Positions 640 through 41,184 of a stretch of DNA of 42,518 bases are shown here, one piece after another; the stretch's first letter is position 1, and each line of letters starts with the position of its first letter. The notes beneath the pieces were generated by a model. The model did not search any database. It saw only the letters and a list, made by a program, of their open reading frames with translations, and had not been told where the DNA came from. Location: assembly GCF_029882185.1 (NCBI RefSeq), contig NZ_JAOULD010000013.1, positions 1-42,518 of the forward strand, in the 5' to 3' direction. The DNA comes from Candidatus Nitrosopumilus sp. Its GTDB lineage: Archaea > Thermoproteota > Nitrososphaeria > Nitrososphaerales > Nitrosopumilaceae. The translations under genes and the position numbers were made by a program.

Positions 640-2406
640 ATGGAGTTTGCAGTTCTATCTGAATCGTTTAACAAGATGGAATCTACGACAAAAAGATTGG
701 AATTAACACAAATCCTAGTAGAATTATTTAAAAAAACACCTCACGAAATAATTTCAAAAATAGTATATCTGATTCAGGGGAAGTTAAGACCAGACTTTGA
801 AGGAATAGAATTAGGTGTTGCAGAAAAACTTGCAATAAGGGCCATTTCAAAATCATCAGGCATTCCAATAAAAAAAATTGAAGACGAGTATAGAAAGGGA
901 GGAGACTTGGGGCATGCATCTTCAATAATTTTAGAACAAAAAACTCAAACTACATTTCTTGTAGAAGACATTACAGTAGAAAGGGTTTACGAAACACTAT
1001 TCAAAATTGCAAAGTTGGGAGGTTCTAGATCTCAAGACATGAAAATGAAATACATTTCTAGTTTGTTAAACGATGCAACACCTCTAGAAGCAAGTTTCAT
1101 TTTAAAAATTTTGCTGGGAACACTTAGACTAGGAATTGCAGAAAACACAGTAATGGATGCTTTAGCAGTAGCATTTTCAGGCAATAAAGAGAACAGGAAA
1201 AAACTACAACATGCATACAATGTTTCAAGTGATTTAGGCAAAGTTGCAGAAACAATTGCAACAAAAGGACTAGAAGGAATTGAAAAATTTGAAATTATTT
1301 TATTCAACCCAATTAGACCAATGCTAGCTGACAGAGTTAGAAGTGAAGAAGAAGCAATTGAAAAAATGGGGGATGAGTTTGCAGCAGAATACAAGCTAGA
1401 TGGGGAAAGAGTTCAACTACATATTGAAGGAGACAGAGTAGAATTATTTTCTAGAAGTCTAGAAAGAATTGAAAGGTATTATCCAGACATAATAGAAAAA
1501 ATTCCCAAGAACATTCAAGCAGACAACATTATTTTGGAAGCAGAAGCAGTAGCAATCAATGAGAACACAGGAGAATTTCTACCATTCCAAGAACTAATGC
1601 ACAGACGAAGAAAATACAAAATAGAAAAAGCTGTAACAGAGTATCCAATCACAGTAAACTTTTTTGATATTTTATATTGTAATGGGAAAAGTTGTGTAGA
1701 ATTAAGTTACAAAGAAAGAAGAGAAAAGCTTGAAAAACATGTCAAAGAAGACGAATTTGCAAAATATATCCCAATGAAGATAGTGAAAAACCAGAATGAA
1801 ATAGAAGACTTCATGGAAAACAGCATCAATGCAGGTAGTGAAGGGTTGATGTTAAAGATGCTAGACAAACCATATCAAGCAGGATCTAGAGGGAGTCACT
1901 GGTTAAAACTAAAACGAGAATACAGAAACGAATTAGGAGACAGTTTAGATCTTGTAGTAATAGGAGGATTTTTTGGTAAAGGTAGAAGAACAGGAAATTA
2001 TGGAACGTTGCTTTTAGCAACTTATGATGAAGATGAAGACACATTTCCAAGCATTTGTAAAGTCGGAACAGGATTTTCGGATGAATCTCTAGATCAACTG
2101 TATCAAATATTACATCCAAATGTTTCAATTAAAAAAAATCCTCGGATCATTAGTGAAATGGAAGCAGACGTATGGTTTGAACCAGAGTTGGTTATCGAGG
2201 TTGTTGCATCAGAAATTACACTTAGTCCAATTCACAAAGCAGCATTCAATACAATTCGAAAAGGCTCAGGTCTAGCTTTGAGATTTCCAAAATTTACAGG
2301 AAAGATCAGAGTTGAAAAAGCAGTTGAAGATGCATCGACTAATGAAGAAGTCATCACATTATACAAAGGGCAGAAAAAAGTAGCACATGATAAAAGTTTG
2401 ATGTAA
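640..2406 (+). CDS. lig: ATP-dependent DNA ligase
   Basis: This 588-residue protein seals nicks in DNA during replication and repair using ATP. The nucleotidyl-transferase motif I, EYKLDGER, lies at residues 250-257, so Lys252 should carry the AMP. Upstream is the alpha-helical DNA-binding domain (about 1-220). Downstream are the remaining adenylation motifs (for example GSEGLMLK near 403-410) and a C-terminal OB-fold domain containing the motif region SHWLKLKRE. Length and order match archaeal replicative ligases of about 560-600 residues. The ATG at 640 gives an N-terminus of normal length. No lesion is seen. Confidence 0.97.
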   Translation: MEFAVLSESFNKMESTTKRLELTQILVELFKKTPHEIISKIVYLIQGKLRPDFEGIELGVAEKLAIRAISKSSGIPIKKIEDEYRKGGDLGHASSIILEQKTQTTFLVEDITVERVYETLFKIAKLGGSRSQDMKMKYISSLLNDATPLEASFILKILLGTLRLGIAENTVMDALAVAFSGNKENRKKLQHAYNVSSDLGKVAETIATKGLEGIEKFEIILFNPIRPMLADRVRSEEEAIEKMGDEFAAEYKLDGERVQLHIEGDRVELFSRSLERIERYYPDIIEKIPKNIQADNIILEAEAVAINENTGEFLPFQELMHRRRKYKIEKAVTEYPITVNFFDILYCNGKSCVELSYKERREKLEKHVKEDEFAKYIPMKIVKNQNEIEDFMENSINAGSEGLMLKMLDKPYQAGSRGSHWLKLKREYRNELGDSLDLVVIGGFFGKGRRTGNYGTLLLATYDEDEDTFPSICKVGTGFSDESLDQLYQILHPNVSIKKNPRIISEMEADVWFEPELVIEVVASEITLSPIHKAAFNTIRKGSGLALRFPKFTGKIRVEKAVEDASTNEEVITLYKGQKKVAHDKSLM

Positions 2407-2473
2407 TCCGTGCTCAAAAAATATTAAAAACCATAGAGGATTTAAATTACCTCGTAGTTTTTTCATTTATGTT

Positions 2474-3127
2474 ATGTATAGCGGAGAGCTTGAAGTTCAA
2501 GCAAAAAGAAAGGCTATAGCAGTTTTACAAGACGAAATCAACAGAATTCTAAATGCATCCAGAGAGCTTGCAACACTTCCTGAATTGATGATGAAAAAAG
2601 ACAAATCTGGAATCAAAAACACACTAGAACAAATTTCAACAATTGAAGAAGAAGTGGAGAACTTGAGAAGGAAAATCACACGTGAAGTTGCAGATGTTGG
2701 AGGATTGATCATGAACAGAGAAAATCTTCTAAATACAGCATATACTATGGATGAAATTGCAGGTTACATCACAGGCATTTCATTCAAACTATCAAATGTG
2801 AAAATCACTACCCTGAAAAGTGCAAAGCTGGACCAAGACATTACAAAATTGATCGAATTGGTTGTAGATGAAGTTTACAAACTAAATGAAATCATTCGTA
2901 GTCTTAATACTAACACTGCTAATGCAATCGAGTTAGCTCAAGAAACTCAAACAATTGAAAGAGAAATAGATATCAAATACAGAGCAGCCACAATTAAACT
3001 TCTCAATGAAGTAACAAACACAAAAGAACTGTTATTGATCAAAGATGTAATAGAAGGAATTGAAGAAATGTCAGACAAATGTCAAAGAGTGTCAGATTCT
3101 TTTATTCTATTAGCATTAAGCCTATAA
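2474..3127 (+). CDS. PhoU-like protein (DUF47 family)
   Basis: This 217-residue, almost wholly alpha-helical protein has long amphipathic helices with repeated Glu and Lys residues. Its length and layout are typical of the DUF47/PhoU-like family (two three-helix bundles). Members bind metals and are often linked to phosphate transport, but no Pit or Pst gene is next to it here, so its role is open. An A/T-rich TATA-like element at about 2441-2449 lies 25-33 nt before the ATG and fits a short or absent leader. Confidence 0.8.
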   Translation: MYSGELEVQAKRKAIAVLQDEINRILNASRELATLPELMMKKDKSGIKNTLEQISTIEEEVENLRRKITREVADVGGLIMNRENLLNTAYTMDEIAGYITGISFKLSNVKITTLKSAKLDQDITKLIELVVDEVYKLNEIIRSLNTNTANAIELAQETQTIEREIDIKYRAATIKLLNEVTNTKELLLIKDVIEGIEEMSDKCQRVSDSFILLALSL

Positions 3128-3221
3128 TCAACCAAATTCTCACACTTTTACTTTATTTTAGTTTCTAAAAATACCTCATCTTATTAGAGAATTCATATAC
3201 AGAGAATTACATCCAATAATA

Positions 3222-3758
3222 ATGAAATGTGAATTAATTGAAAATAGAATCATAGTATGGGATATTGAAAATTCACGAAAACTTTTCAGCCAAGGATATT
3301 ATGGAAAACCAATTGGAATTCCAAAACCAAAAATTGAAGAAATAGATGCACCGCTAATTTTAGATCTTATAGAAGGACTGTATCTATTGGAAAATAAAAA
3401 AATCACAATTACAAAATCAAAACAAAAAATTTCAACAGAACAACTAGTTGAAATTTGTAAAAGCGAAGTTCATGAATTTGATAAAAAATATCTAGTATAC
3501 AAAAATTTCAGAGACAAAGGGTACATCATAAATCCGGGAATCAAATTTGGATGTGATTTTGCAGTTTATGAGAAAGGGCCAGGAATTGATCATGCGCCAT
3601 TTTTAATTCAAGTGTATACACGAAACGAATCAATTACTTCTACAGGGATTGTTTTGGCAGGAAGATTGGCATCATCAGTAAAAAAACAATTCATTCTGGC
3701 AATTCCAAAAGGCAAAGATAAAGTAGATTTCTTAGCGTTAGACTGGTGGAAAGCTTAG
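3222..3758 (+). CDS. endA: tRNA-splicing endonuclease EndA
   Basis: This 178-residue protein cuts tRNA precursors at the bulge-helix-bulge around introns. The C-terminal catalytic half has the expected layout: a Tyr-rich segment (KYLVYKNFRDKGY), a glycine-rich GIKFGCDF strand, the catalytic His in GIDHAPFLI, and the catalytic Lys in SVKKQF. Its size matches the short homotetramer or heteromeric alpha-type subunits. The same window holds an intron-bearing tRNA-Leu (41084-41184) that would be a substrate. The stop codon overlaps the end of the convergent gene at 3755-4132 by four bases. Confidence 0.95.
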   Translation: MKCELIENRIIVWDIENSRKLFSQGYYGKPIGIPKPKIEEIDAPLILDLIEGLYLLENKKITITKSKQKISTEQLVEICKSEVHEFDKKYLVYKNFRDKGYIINPGIKFGCDFAVYEKGPGIDHAPFLIQVYTRNESITSTGIVLAGRLASSVKKQFILAIPKGKDKVDFLALDWWKA

Positions 3759-4132
3759 ACAGACTTGATGTGGCCTGCTATTTTATCATAAATTTCAAAA
3801 AGTTCTTTTGTAATTCCAAAAGCAATATGATTGTCCCATTTACTTCTAATTCTAACTGCTTTTACAGTAGGTTCAACATAGATAGTGGCATCTTTAACAG
3901 ATTGTTTTGCTATCATTTCATTTAGTTCCATATCAGCATTTAGTTTTGATGCCAGACTACCAGAGCCAACCCATTCAACCTTTGCCACAGATTTTGAGGC
4001 AAAGTGACCTTTTGTGGTAAGTTTAGTTTTTGCAACATAATTATTATAATTACGGCCAGTTTCTTTTTTTACAATGAATTGAGCTTGAAATCTATCTAAA
4101 GCGCCCCATGGTAGTGGATTTAGATCTTGCAT
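3755..4132 (-). CDS. Conserved-looking protein of unknown function
   Basis: This 125-residue soluble protein has no membrane segment and no obvious metal motif. It has alternating beta and alpha potential, and a start (MQDLNPLPWGALDRF) that looks like a genuine ordered N-terminus. It follows the gene at 4135-4371 with only two bases between them, so the two form a likely operon. It converges on endA with a four-base overlap. I do not recognise the family, and the position beside endA does not by itself imply a tRNA role. Confidence 0.75.
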   Translation of the reverse strand: MQDLNPLPWGALDRFQAQFIVKKETGRNYNNYVAKTKLTTKGHFASKSVAKVEWVGSGSLASKLNADMELNEMIAKQSVKDATIYVEPTVKAVRIRSKWDNHIAFGITKELFEIYDKIAGHIKSV

Positions 4133-4134
4133 GA

Positions 4135-4371
4135 CTATCCCTTTTGAATTATTTGTACAACATCAATATTTGAATTCTTGATATCAATACATCCACGATT
4201 GGTTATCATTCTAGGTGTTTGAGCAAAATATCTACTATAGTAATCATCTTTTTCAACTTCATCAGTTCCAATTTCTTTGGATTCAGAATCAACTCCGATC
4301 TCTTTTAACATATCAGCAAATTTTTCAGGCCATGATTGATAGACAAATGTGTCTGACTCTGTATCATGCAT
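4135..4371 (-). CDS. Small acidic protein of unknown function
   Basis: This 78-residue protein is strongly acidic in its first half (many Asp and Glu, with SESKEIGTDEVEKDD) and has a more mixed C-terminal half containing one Cys (RGCIDI). It is the first gene of a two-gene minus-strand unit with the 125-residue protein that follows. The ATG at 4371 is the likely start. No family is recognised. Confidence 0.65.
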   Translation of the reverse strand: MHDTESDTFVYQSWPEKFADMLKEIGVDSESKEIGTDEVEKDDYYSRYFAQTPRMITNRGCIDIKNSNIDVVQIIQKG

Positions 4372-4432
4372 TATTTATCATCAATCATACCCACAAATAA
4401 AGATATCAAGAAAAACTACAGAGATCAATCAA

Positions 4433-4442
4433 ATTAAATATC
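4433..4442 (+). promoter_or_regulatory. TATA-like box for the SDR-hotdog operon
   Basis: The A/T run ATTAAATATC lies about 25-30 nt before the ATG at 4467. This is the spacing expected for a leaderless archaeal transcript. It supports ATG 4467 over the upstream TTG at 4452. Confidence 0.4.
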
Positions 4443-4466
4443 ACAGAAGTTTTGGTATGTTATCCA

Positions 4467-6236
4467 ATGTTAAAATTTCAAAATAAAATTGCTCTAGTTA
4501 CGGGAAGCGGCACTGGAATAGGTAAAGCCATTGCCACAAAATTCATTGAGGAGGGGGCCAGCGTAATTATTCTTGGAAGAAGAAAAGAACCACTAGAAGA
4601 AGCAGCAAAAGAACTAGAGGAAAAAATTCCCCAAAACAGCAATGCTTCAGTTAGAATTTTTGCAGGAGTAGATGTTGCAGATGAAGCAGCAATGAATAGT
4701 ATGTTTGATACATTAAAAAATGAAAATACAACAATAGATTACATAATTAATAATGCAGGAGTTTCAGGTCCTGTCACATGTTTTTCAAATGCTTCACTAG
4801 AAGAATTCAAAAGTACGATAGGCATTCATCTTACAGGAACATTCTGGGGTTCTGTACAAGCATTAAAAGTCATGAAAACAGGGGGCAAAATTATTACTAT
4901 CTCTACATTTTTCACAGAAGAAAAACCATTAGAACAAAGACCATATAGATTTAGAAGTCCATATACGGCATCACAAGGTGCAAAAAATAGATTAGCAGAG
5001 TTGATGTCTTGGGAATTAACAGATAAAGGAATCATTTCAATCGCAACAAATCCAGGACCAGTTCATTCAGATAGAATTTACAAAACAGTATATCCAAAAG
5101 CAGCAGCAGAGTTTATGAGAGTAAGTGGATTTGAAGACCTAATTCCAACTGAAGTAGATGAAGCAAATAAAGAATTACTTCCGTTATTAGGTGAAGATGA
5201 AAAGATCATTAAAGAAGGAATTGCCGCAGCTGTTGTAAAACTTGCAAATGGCAAAGATGTTTCAAAACTTACAGAGACATTTACTAATTTATTAAATAAA
5301 ATACAAATCATTGCAGAGAAAGTTCAAAATAATACATCACATATGATTGCAAATAAAGAATTTCTATCACAAGGACAAGTGGCAGAAACTGTTCTCAATT
5401 TATGTGATGATGAAATTGCAAAAATAATTAACGGTAAAGTAATTCCAGGAGATAGAGTATTTTATCCAGTTAAACCACATATTGGTACTGCAACACCAGG
5501 AGTTCATCAACCAGACTTTACAGGAAAAGCAGTTGTTTTTACAATTGATGCGACGGACAAGACAGATGCAGAACGAGTAGAATTTTTGGCACAACATGTA
5601 GAGAAGAATGGAGGAAAAGTAGCTTGTTTCATTTCACAAACAACATCATCAGAACTCCAAGAATACATCAGTAGTAAATTCCATTCCCACATAGTAGATT
5701 TGAAAAACCCAGAAGAAGTTGCCAGATGGCTAAACACCGCAAAAACCAACATAGGAGATATTTTAGGTGTAATTCATGTTACTGGAAACCTTCCAAACAT
5801 ACCAAAATTAACAGAAGTGTCAAGGGCAGAATGGGAATCATTAACTGAGAAATTCATTTCGACACCAGCAACTGTTGCACAAAGAGCATTAGAGCAATTT
5901 GTCCCAGGAGGAAGTAAAGATCCTCGTCTTTACAAAGATGCAAAAGGAGCAATCATGATAATTGGTCCAGATTTACCCATAGGTAAGAAAGTTACAGGAA
6001 CACAAAGAGCACAAGTAGAAGTTTTCAGAGGAGCACTAAGACCATTCACAACTACGGTCAATCAAGAACTAAGTGATGTTCTAAAATCAAAAATCAGAAT
6101 GTTTACAATTTTCCCAGGAACAGTGGACGGCTCAGAACCAAACAATCAAAAAATTGTGGATGCATTTAATTTCCTAGTATCAGATAATGCATTATCATCA
6201 GCAGAAATTATCTTTTGTGTTGATGAATCAAGATAA
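4467..6236 (+). CDS. Tandem short-chain dehydrogenase/reductase protein resembling the N-terminal half of malonyl-CoA reductase
   Basis: This 589-residue protein has two Rossmann units. The first has the SDR cofactor motif TGSGTGIG (12-19), NNAG (95-98), a candidate catalytic Ser146 and Tyr166. The usual YxxxK lysine is Gln170 (YTASQ). The second unit, from about residue 345, has no clear glycine motif or catalytic set and looks structural. The layout, with segments such as NPGPVHSDRI and a late GTQRAQVEVFRGAL helix, recalls from memory the N-terminal part of Chloroflexus malonyl-CoA reductase, which reduces malonate semialdehyde. A role in the 3-hydroxypropionate/4-hydroxybutyrate cycle is therefore only a hypothesis. 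I chose ATG 4467 because the longer frame starts at TTG 4452. It is followed two bases later by a hotdog gene. Confidence 0.85.
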   Translation: MLKFQNKIALVTGSGTGIGKAIATKFIEEGASVIILGRRKEPLEEAAKELEEKIPQNSNASVRIFAGVDVADEAAMNSMFDTLKNENTTIDYIINNAGVSGPVTCFSNASLEEFKSTIGIHLTGTFWGSVQALKVMKTGGKIITISTFFTEEKPLEQRPYRFRSPYTASQGAKNRLAELMSWELTDKGIISIATNPGPVHSDRIYKTVYPKAAAEFMRVSGFEDLIPTEVDEANKELLPLLGEDEKIIKEGIAAAVVKLANGKDVSKLTETFTNLLNKIQIIAEKVQNNTSHMIANKEFLSQGQVAETVLNLCDDEIAKIINGKVIPGDRVFYPVKPHIGTATPGVHQPDFTGKAVVFTIDATDKTDAERVEFLAQHVEKNGGKVACFISQTTSSELQEYISSKFHSHIVDLKNPEEVARWLNTAKTNIGDILGVIHVTGNLPNIPKLTEVSRAEWESLTEKFISTPATVAQRALEQFVPGGSKDPRLYKDAKGAIMIIGPDLPIGKKVTGTQRAQVEVFRGALRPFTTTVNQELSDVLKSKIRMFTIFPGTVDGSEPNNQKIVDAFNFLVSDNALSSAEIIFCVDESR

Positions 6237-20439: not shown

Positions 20440-20688
20440 ATGATTGAACAAATCGATGCAAAAAAAGTCGTAGAAGTCATTGGAAACAATCTCATCGGAG
20501 TGTCTCACGATTCAAGCAGTTTTGCAAAATTGCCTGATTCATTTTGGGGATACTTTGCAAGAGGTCACGACAAAAAAGGAACATTTGGAGTAATTGTGAC
20601 TTATTCTGAAGAAGGTAAAGATGTAGATGAAATAATCAAAATGTATGAAGAATGGGCTGTAAAAAACAAGACCAAAAGTTCAGGATAA
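20440..20688 (+). CDS. Small soluble protein, unknown function
   Basis: This 82-residue protein starts at ATG 20440, about 35-40 nt after an A/T-rich stretch. It has a strand-helix pattern (KKVVEVIGNNLIGVSH, then GTFGVIVTYSEE, then helix VDEIIKMYEEWAVK). It ends exactly where the convergent 43-residue zinc-ribbon gene ends. No family is recognised. Confidence 0.65.
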   Translation: MIEQIDAKKVVEVIGNNLIGVSHDSSSFAKLPDSFWGYFARGHDKKGTFGVIVTYSEEGKDVDEIIKMYEEWAVKNKTKSSG

Positions 20689-21257: not shown

Positions 21258-21316
21258 CAAAAAATCAAATTTATTACACTTTTTGATGATTAACAAAAAA
21301 ATAGAATCAATTTTCA

Positions 21317-21416
21317 TGAATCTAAATTATGAAGTGTTTTTGCGGATGGTCCAAAACCAGAAAAAATACATGAATACATTCAGAAAATATCTGATCCTAA
21401 ATATTCTTGCCACTAG
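21317..21416 (+). pseudogene. Possible frameshifted small gene remnant
   Basis: ATG 21317 opens a frame (MNLNYE) that, after a one-base shift near 21333, continues as VFADGPKPEKIHEYIQK and ends KYSCH at a TAG (21414-21416). The second frame reads like real protein but has no start of its own. The evidence is codon texture only. Confidence 0.2.
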
Positions 21417-21433
21417 GTGGGAATTAAGATCAA

Positions 21434-21443
21434 TCTTAAATAT
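21434..21443 (+). promoter_or_regulatory. TATA-like box for the candidate RNA
   Basis: TCTTAAATATG at about 21434-21443 lies 25 nt before the outermost base pair of the folded element at 21462, the normal distance from an archaeal TATA box to the transcription start. Confidence 0.45.
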
Positions 21444-21461
21444 GATTTTGACTTAATAGTT

Positions 21462-21570
21462 ATGACGAGAAACTGTTGTTCTGCGTAGTAGGATGATAAG
21501 TCTGGAAAACACATCATGTTAGGAAATACGTCCTTGAATCAAACGTGTTTTCCACGTATCTCGTTGTTTT
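21462..21570 (+). ncRNA. Candidate novel structured small RNA (about 105-110 nt)
   Basis: The stretch folds into two nested helices. An outer stem pairs 21462-21470 (ATGACGAGA) with 21559-21567 (TCTCGTTGT), with two G-U pairs. An inner perfect 10-bp stem pairs 21503-21512 (TGGAAAACAC) with 21545-21554 (GTGTTTTCCA). A small hairpin, AGGA/TCCT at 21521-21534, lies in the inner loop. TATA-like sequence precedes 21462 by 25 nt, and TTTT follows the outer stem, as a terminator would. No plus-strand gene follows for 1.5 kb, so it is not a riboswitch. It does not match RNase P, SRP or tRNA. I could not check covariation. Confidence 0.45.
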
Positions 21571-21621
21571 ATAATTCAATTAAAAATAACTTCTAGATAC
21601 TAAACAGAAATTCATCTGAAA

Positions 21622-21774
21622 TTAATTTAGAGCAGATGAGTTTGTGTGAAGTAATTTAATTTGTATTTGAGCAAGTTGCGTAGGATTAAGATGGCATTCT
21701 GCACACTCTAGACTACAATAATCACTTACTCTATTCTCAAATACTTTACCACAAAATAGACACTTTTTTTCCAT
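21622..21774 (-). CDS. Small treble-clef zinc-finger protein (50 residues)
   Basis: The protein begins MEKKCLFCGKVFENR and continues DYCSLECAECH, a CxxC...CxxxC pattern seen in HIT/MYND-like and other treble-clef fingers. A longer frame opens at ATG 21822 with 16 extra residues. I prefer ATG 21774 because an ATTTTAATA box (about 21797-21806) sits 25 nt upstream, and the extra residues are AT-rich with no pattern. It converges on the candidate RNA. Confidence 0.55.
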   Translation of the reverse strand: MEKKCLFCGKVFENRVSDYCSLECAECHLNPTQLAQIQIKLLHTNSSALN

Positions 21775-23109: not shown

Positions 23110-23673
23110 GTGGAATTTCATTGTATAGAAGATTGTGCTCAATGCTGTATTGAAAGAGAGTACTATCCAAGTAAAAAATTTGGCAAAATAGGAGTGTTGA
23201 TTCTTCCAGAGGAAAAAGATAGAATTGAACAACTTGCAATCAAAAACAAATTAGAAATCAAAATTTTGCCAAGAGTGGGAATTTCTGAAAGAAATGATTC
23301 TAGCCCAAGTAAAGTTTTGGCATATCAATTAATGGGTTCTGAAAAAAATGGTAATACATGTCCGTTTTTAGATACAACCAGTGGAAAAAAATCACCGCAT
23401 GGTGGATATCCATGTAAAATTTACAACAAAAGACCATTAGCATGTACAGCATACCCTTTGATTGAATCAGAGCCAATAACACTGGATCAAAAATGTAAAT
23501 TCTGCAAAGAGCATGGAAATGCACATGCCAATCTAAATTCAGAAATAGAATCTCTTTTAAAAATTAAAGAAAAAATGATTCCCGAATTTCCAGTAATTTG
23601 GAGGTACGCCACAAACATTGGCGAGATTGAAGATCAAGAAGTGATGGATTCAGGATGGATTTTAGAAAAATAA
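23110..23673 (+). CDS. YkgJ-type Cys-cluster protein
   Basis: This 187-residue protein has the spaced Cys signature of YkgJ/UPF0153 proteins: HCIEDCAQCC near the N-terminus, then CPFLD, YPCKIYNKRPLACTAYP and CKFCKEH. These likely bind an iron-sulfur cluster or zinc. GTG 23110 is the start, as an in-frame ATG would cut off the first Cys. It is divergent from aIF1A with about 100 bases between starts. The reaction is unknown. Confidence 0.88.
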   Translation: MEFHCIEDCAQCCIEREYYPSKKFGKIGVLILPEEKDRIEQLAIKNKLEIKILPRVGISERNDSSPSKVLAYQLMGSEKNGNTCPFLDTTSGKKSPHGGYPCKIYNKRPLACTAYPLIESEPITLDQKCKFCKEHGNAHANLNSEIESLLKIKEKMIPEFPVIWRYATNIGEIEDQEVMDSGWILEK

Positions 23674-41083: not shown

Positions 41084-41184
41084 TGCAGAGGGTGGGATTT
41101 GAACCCACGAACTCCTGAGAGAAGGGATTTCCTATTTTATGGATCTTGAGTCCCTCTCGGTTGACCGGGCTTCGATACCTCTGC
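41084..41184 (-). tRNA. tRNA-Leu (CAA) with a 16-nt intron
   Basis: On the minus strand the acceptor GCAGAGG pairs with CCTCTGC, with an A discriminator; CCA is not encoded. The T stem is GTGGG/CCCAC with loop TTCAAAT. The anticodon loop CTCAAG-A gives CAA (plus positions 41146-41148, reading TTG codons). After position 37 a 16-nt intron lies at 41129-41144; exon 2 resumes at ATCCCT, which closes the AGGGA stem. A long variable arm fits Leu. EndA in this window should remove the intron. Confidence 0.92.

Follow-up and report, generated by a model that had tools for sequence, protein, structure and literature searches.

A small RNA gene with its own promoter

The window, which is the whole 42,518-nt stretch of DNA analysed, almost certainly holds a genuine, conserved small RNA gene on its plus strand, with a predicted transcript of about 109 nt (21462-21570) whose 5' end is placed from the TATA spacing and whose 3' end is placed from the T-run. 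The first-pass annotation had pointed out a TATA-like box and a terminal TTTT, and both are where it put them: the TATA box TTAAATAT (21436-21443, +) is near-invariant across the aligned loci, and the T-run (21567-21570, +), a likely termination signal, is conserved, each of its four positions being a T in 62-66 of 78 loci. As it had also noted, no ORF spans the region; downstream on the plus strand, the first ORF likely to be a gene begins at 23110.

The TATA box is flanked by a GATCA element 3 nt upstream (21428-21432, +) and by a conserved ATTTTGACGTA segment 3' of it (21445-21455, +; PWM of 76 loci), which reads ATTTTGACTTA in the window. With exact spacing, GATCA-N3-TTAAATA is present at 68/78 RNA loci, and at one other site in all of G183, the complete genome of 1,645,259 bp used for the target screen, which is N. 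maritimus SCM1 as judged from its S-layer protein, and which carries the RNA at 630613-630730 on the minus strand. The whole promoter block scores 49.1 bits at the G183 RNA and 8.5 bits at the runner-up site (PWM, 76 loci), and since the conserved block exceeds a plain TATA box, it suggests that a dedicated regulator may act here. The block (GATCA-N3-TTAAATAT-N-ATTTTGACGTA, 21428-21455 and homologues) is as conserved as the RNA itself; as it is unique in G183, a promoter regulon was ruled out.

Three covarying helices form a three-way junction

The RNA folds as a three-way junction, with a closing helix H1, a 5' hairpin H2, and a 10-bp helix H3 that carries a large loop. Two of these helices had been seen previously, and they stand as described: H1 (21462-21470 with 21559-21567, +) has 9 bp including two G-U pairs, and the stem of H3 (21503-21512 with 21545-21554) is a perfect 10 bp. 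The nested-stem fold proposed for them had missed the third helix, H2 (21472-21501, +; strands 21472-21484 and 21488-21501), whereas the "small inner hairpin" of that proposal turned out to be weak and clade-specific. The single-sequence fold has a free energy of -33.3 kcal/mol (z = -3.74), lower than all 200 of 200 dinucleotide shuffles.

In an alignment of 76 copies, 93.3% of the cells over all helices are paired (94% in H1, 95% in H2 and 91% in H3), vs 40-57% in slid controls, and 74 cells are changed on both sides, vs 21.6 in shuffles. Compensatory changes were found in all three helices, also by RNAalifold: the changes in H1 across loci include a G-C to A-U exchange, six pairs of H2 have double-sided changes, and so do five pairs of H3, for example GGAAAACAC/GTGTTTTCC to GGAAAGCGT/ACGCTTTCC. 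The tip of H2, UCUGCGU(C/A)GUAGA (21480-21492), is nearly invariant and contains an unchanging G-U pair, which would fit recognition by a protein; its invariant part, CUGCGU(C/A)GUAG, may be a site of protein binding.

Distribution and genomic neighbourhood

A covariance model, the kind of search that had been proposed for relatives of the window, gave 116 matches in 87 of the 250 family genomes, in five genera and with one to four copies per genome; three of the 116 are weak (about 30 bits), among them the sole match of genus g39. The named carriers are Nitrosopumilus, Nitrosarchaeum, Nitrosotenuis and relatives, BLASTN likewise found relatives across the genus and further afield in the family, and no match was obtained outside the Nitrosopumilaceae in an order-level sample of 250 genomes. 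Three IMG/VR pattern matches, which would have pointed to a viral origin, failed the covariance model, as did the bacterial pattern matches, which are due to chance.

The promoter block (~34 bp), the RNA and the T-run move as one unit into unrelated neighbourhoods, and with the covarying stems this bears out the earlier proposal of a stand-alone RNA with its own promoter and T-run. Flanking genes vary among lineages, and the downstream gene can be on either strand, often the opposite one. Because the neighbouring genes vary, the RNA is, as far as sequence can tell, a free-standing gene; across the loci there is no constant same-strand downstream gene of the kind that a riboswitch or cis-acting leader would have. 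The zinc proteins and the HTH remnant nearby, which had been named together with an accessory region, are incidental. A conserved 82-aa protein without Pfam match (20440-20688, +) is found family-wide and often adjoins the RNA through shared synteny; a functional tie was rejected, as the protein also occurs without the RNA, and in G183 lies 310 kb from it.

The genome of the window itself has two copies of the RNA, the one described here and one at C58:10860-10995, which is 78% identical. This second copy (L273, G000:C58:5000-20000) adjoins a gene cluster at 2341-5302 which encodes a type-B DNA polymerase of the organellar or viral kind (PolB) and a HEPN protein, and which is possibly an integrated mobile element. 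As such neighbours occur at this copy only, a general link of the RNA with mobile elements was rejected. In another genome (G210:C91, L048), two diverged copies are found on the same strand, about 2 kb apart.

Copies at different places, one of them next to the PolB/HEPN cluster, might also be expected of a DNA-level inverted repeat, an IS end or a MITE without a functional RNA, which had been the main alternative in the first-pass annotation. We consider this next to impossible, given that the homology ends at the promoter and the T-run, both of which are conserved, that no terminal inverted repeats were found at the ends of the unit, that the compensatory changes are of the RNA type and include G-U pairs, and that the locations are mostly lineage-specific and stable.

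The S-layer gene as candidate target

A candidate target was first noticed by inspection and tested afterwards. In G183, TAACATGA has AGGACGT, which is complementary to the second conserved segment of the H3 loop, within the next 40 nt at one place only, the start of a 1,735-codon gene. This gene encodes the S-layer protein NmSLP (match to PDB 8c8k by phmmer, E 1e-163), corresponding to Nmar_1547 (PMC11153153). The S-layer of ammonia-oxidizing archaea concentrates ammonium at the cell surface (PMC11153153). In the loci that could be read to the start, the S-layer start is AATAACATGAAYAACGA, with the exception of the SCM1 paralogue, which has AATAACATGTACAACGA. The TATA box of the S-layer gene starts 35 nt upstream of the AUG, and the mRNA would therefore have a leader of only 5-9 nt.

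The loop of H3 (21503-21554, +) contains two segments complementary to this start, the division between them having been chosen after the match was seen. The first, S1 (21514-21521, +), is UCAUGUUA, the complement of UAACAUGA at the S-layer start codon, and is invariant in nearly all copies, with surrounding helices that vary by compensation. Its unpaired probability is 0.7-0.8 for the first bases and 0.34-0.5 at the 3' end, and an accessible, conserved segment complementary to a translation start is what would be expected of a trans-acting, base-pairing sRNA. With a leader so short, S1 would span both the 5' end of the mRNA and the AUG. The second segment, S2 (21527-21534, +), reads UACGUCCU in the window, the complement of AGGACGUA in codons 5-8 of the S-layer gene; taken generally, S2 is complementary to codons 2-8.

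S2 differs between clades together with its target: in the main Nitrosopumilus clade UACGUCCU(A) faces (U)AGGACGUA, in the G006/G029/G048 clade UUUAYGU(C) faces GACGUAAA, in Nitrosotenuis CUAUUUCGUUGU and ACAACGAGAUAG form 12 bp, one of them G-U, and in Nitrosarchaeum UUCGUUAU faces AUAACGAA. Of 36 S2 segments, which are not mutually independent, 31 pair at p<0.05 relative to shuffled segments; S2 pairing is poor in L023, L029 and L144 (p 0.15-0.40) and marginal in L074 and L045. With regard to S1, pairing in the main clade is 8-10 bp only, and the flanking bases do not favour a longer duplex. At position +6 the Nitrosotenuis S-layer gene has a C with a G opposite in the RNA, and Nitrosarchaeum a U with an A opposite; by computed energies, Nitrosotenuis RNAs prefer the Nitrosotenuis-type start AACAACGAG by 1.6-2.0 kcal/mol, and Nitrosarchaeum RNAs the AATAACGAA type by 1.4-3.0 kcal/mol.

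The first codons of the S-layer gene are themselves unusual: across the family, codons 3 and 5-12 hardly vary at synonymous sites (codon identity 0.94-1.00), compared with about 0.65 for codons 2 and 4 and mostly 0.3-0.7 past codon 18, which points to constraint at the nucleic-acid level. The identical start is present in two genomes where the RNA was not found (G204 and G059), so the RNA cannot be the sole cause of this conservation.

Averaged over the H3 loops of 15 representative RNAs that differ in loop sequence, the scores for the 2,495 candidate start regions of G183 put the S-layer gene first (mean z -4.56, next -3.57) and the S-layer paralogue sixth. For 39 loops, each compared with 2,281 other regions besides the S-layer start of its own genome, the summed-energy rank of the S-layer start was 0-28 (median about 7), and it was 0 for ten of them. 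When the H3 loop was scored against start regions as a single continuous duplex there was no clear leader, and TAACATGA by itself is not enriched at start codons genome-wide (4/1,520, with about 5 expected).

The S-layer mRNA is thus probably the target, as judged from these sequence comparisons. It is unlikely, though it deserves consideration, that the RNA is a regulatory sRNA with another real mRNA target, or with several, and that the S-layer match is secondary or fortuitous: further start regions score as well (z -3.6 to -3.3), S1 is short and has 74 genomic matches in G183, and genomes lacking the RNA conserve the S-layer start just as well. However, no other gene tops the ranking across clades with different S2 segments, and both the species-matched preference and the turnover of S2 track the S-layer sequence.

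A possible mode of action

We propose, with a probability of roughly 0.6, that the RNA is a trans-acting antisense sRNA which blocks access to the start of the nearly leaderless S-layer mRNA and would thereby repress or tune S-layer synthesis. A free-standing gene with its own promoter and terminator, as indicated by sequence conservation, is consistent with such a role. The RNA would be transcribed from its dedicated promoter and fold into the three-way junction, which would display the H3 loop; S1 would anneal to the opening bases of the S-layer mRNA and cover the very short leader and the AUG, while S2, further along the loop, would pair within codons 2-8. With both segments held, the start codon would be hidden and S-layer synthesis repressed, or at least tuned. 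The order of pairing is unusual, as the 5' part of the RNA (S1) pairs with the 5' part of the mRNA and S2 with the 3' part; using the two segments together would require a three-way junction with H3, and otherwise they may be used one at a time. What the comparisons show is a conserved, covarying RNA with its promoter, and a complementarity in two segments that ranks first over the genome and persists while S2 changes. We infer that the RNA is transcribed and binds in the cell, that S1 and S2 are used simultaneously, and that the mRNA is repressed and not protected. A more specific version, in which the two loop segments clamp the start codon in a 5'-with-5' intermolecular three-way junction and the RNA coevolves with the S-layer start as a dedicated S-layer control, is put forward tentatively, and we lean against it.

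If the S-layer mRNA is the target, repression is quite likely, and repression of initiation the likeliest outcome, because the AUG is covered whenever S1 pairs; the main alternative is protection of the 5' end. It is improbable that the same pairing protects or activates the S-layer mRNA, be it by shielding its 5' end from exonucleases or by helping to recruit ribosomes, since with S1 on the AUG of a message almost without leader, initiation would usually be blocked. Protection would fit with a pairing that runs right up to the 5' terminus of the mRNA, and with the very high expression of the S-layer gene (PMC11153153). The antisense model leaves the H2 tip unexplained, although it is as invariant as S1, and this could indicate a structured RNA acting via a protein or ligand, with CUGCGU(C/A)GUAG as its functional site and no base-pairing target; this is very improbable, as it leaves unexplained how S1 and the changing S2 come to match the S-layer start.

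For 11 RNA-carrying draft genomes, no S-layer gene of the NmSLP type was found, possibly due to assembly gaps. On inspection of the alignment, the RNAs from three of the drafts lacking it (L072, L075 and L080) keep an S-layer-like S2, strongest in L075.

Relation to known RNAs

Masking of a translation start signal by an archaeal trans-acting sRNA that pairs with its mRNA is known from sRNA162 of Methanosarcina mazei, which covers a ribosome-binding site (PMC3510493); compared by description, sRNA162 differs in that its pairing region is a single-stranded linker and not a hairpin loop, and in its target and lineage. Binding to a target mRNA has also been demonstrated for s479 of Haloferax volcanii (PMC8155600), but this sRNA is crRNA-like, tied to Cas proteins and directed at a zinc-transporter mRNA, and its abstract mentions no three-way junction. 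Tan1 of marine group II Euryarchaeota (PMC5069720) is similarly an abundant, structured non-coding RNA of uncultivated marine archaea, but it is 229 nt long, comes from another phylum and has no known target.

Among bacterial antisense pairs, OxyS binds fhlA mRNA through two short loop segments, one of them over the start region, whereas in the RNA described here both segments are in one loop and pair in a 5' with 5' order; we know of no homology between the OxyS-type sRNAs and this RNA. Features of box C/D or H/ACA RNAs (RUGAUGA, CUGA, an ANA box after the hairpin) were absent from the conserved alignment positions on inspection. No prior report of the RNA was found in the literature searched, and no trans-acting sRNA with a proposed target in that on ammonia-oxidizing archaea. 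It represents a previously undescribed family of small RNA genes in ammonia-oxidizing marine archaea, which rank among the ocean's most abundant cells.

If the proposed interaction is correct, a conserved family that Rfam lacks would have a target precise enough to be tested, giving access to how the cell coat and ammonium uptake are regulated after transcription. It would also exemplify an sRNA that pairs at the very 5' terminus of an mRNA with almost no leader, a message type frequent in archaea. On the more specific version given above, there would further be dedicated RNA control, in ammonia-oxidizing archaea, of an S-layer thought to concentrate ammonium.

The comparison with Rfam that had been suggested gave no counterpart of the RNA at the gathering score: nine homologous loci had no match at E<=0.5, and a search of 21300-21700 at a lax threshold returned noise, with the best match at the RNA having an E of 2.8. 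Over the whole window only a tRNA was matched, of 101 nt at 41084-41184 (-), which was missed by ARAGORN and probably contains an intron.
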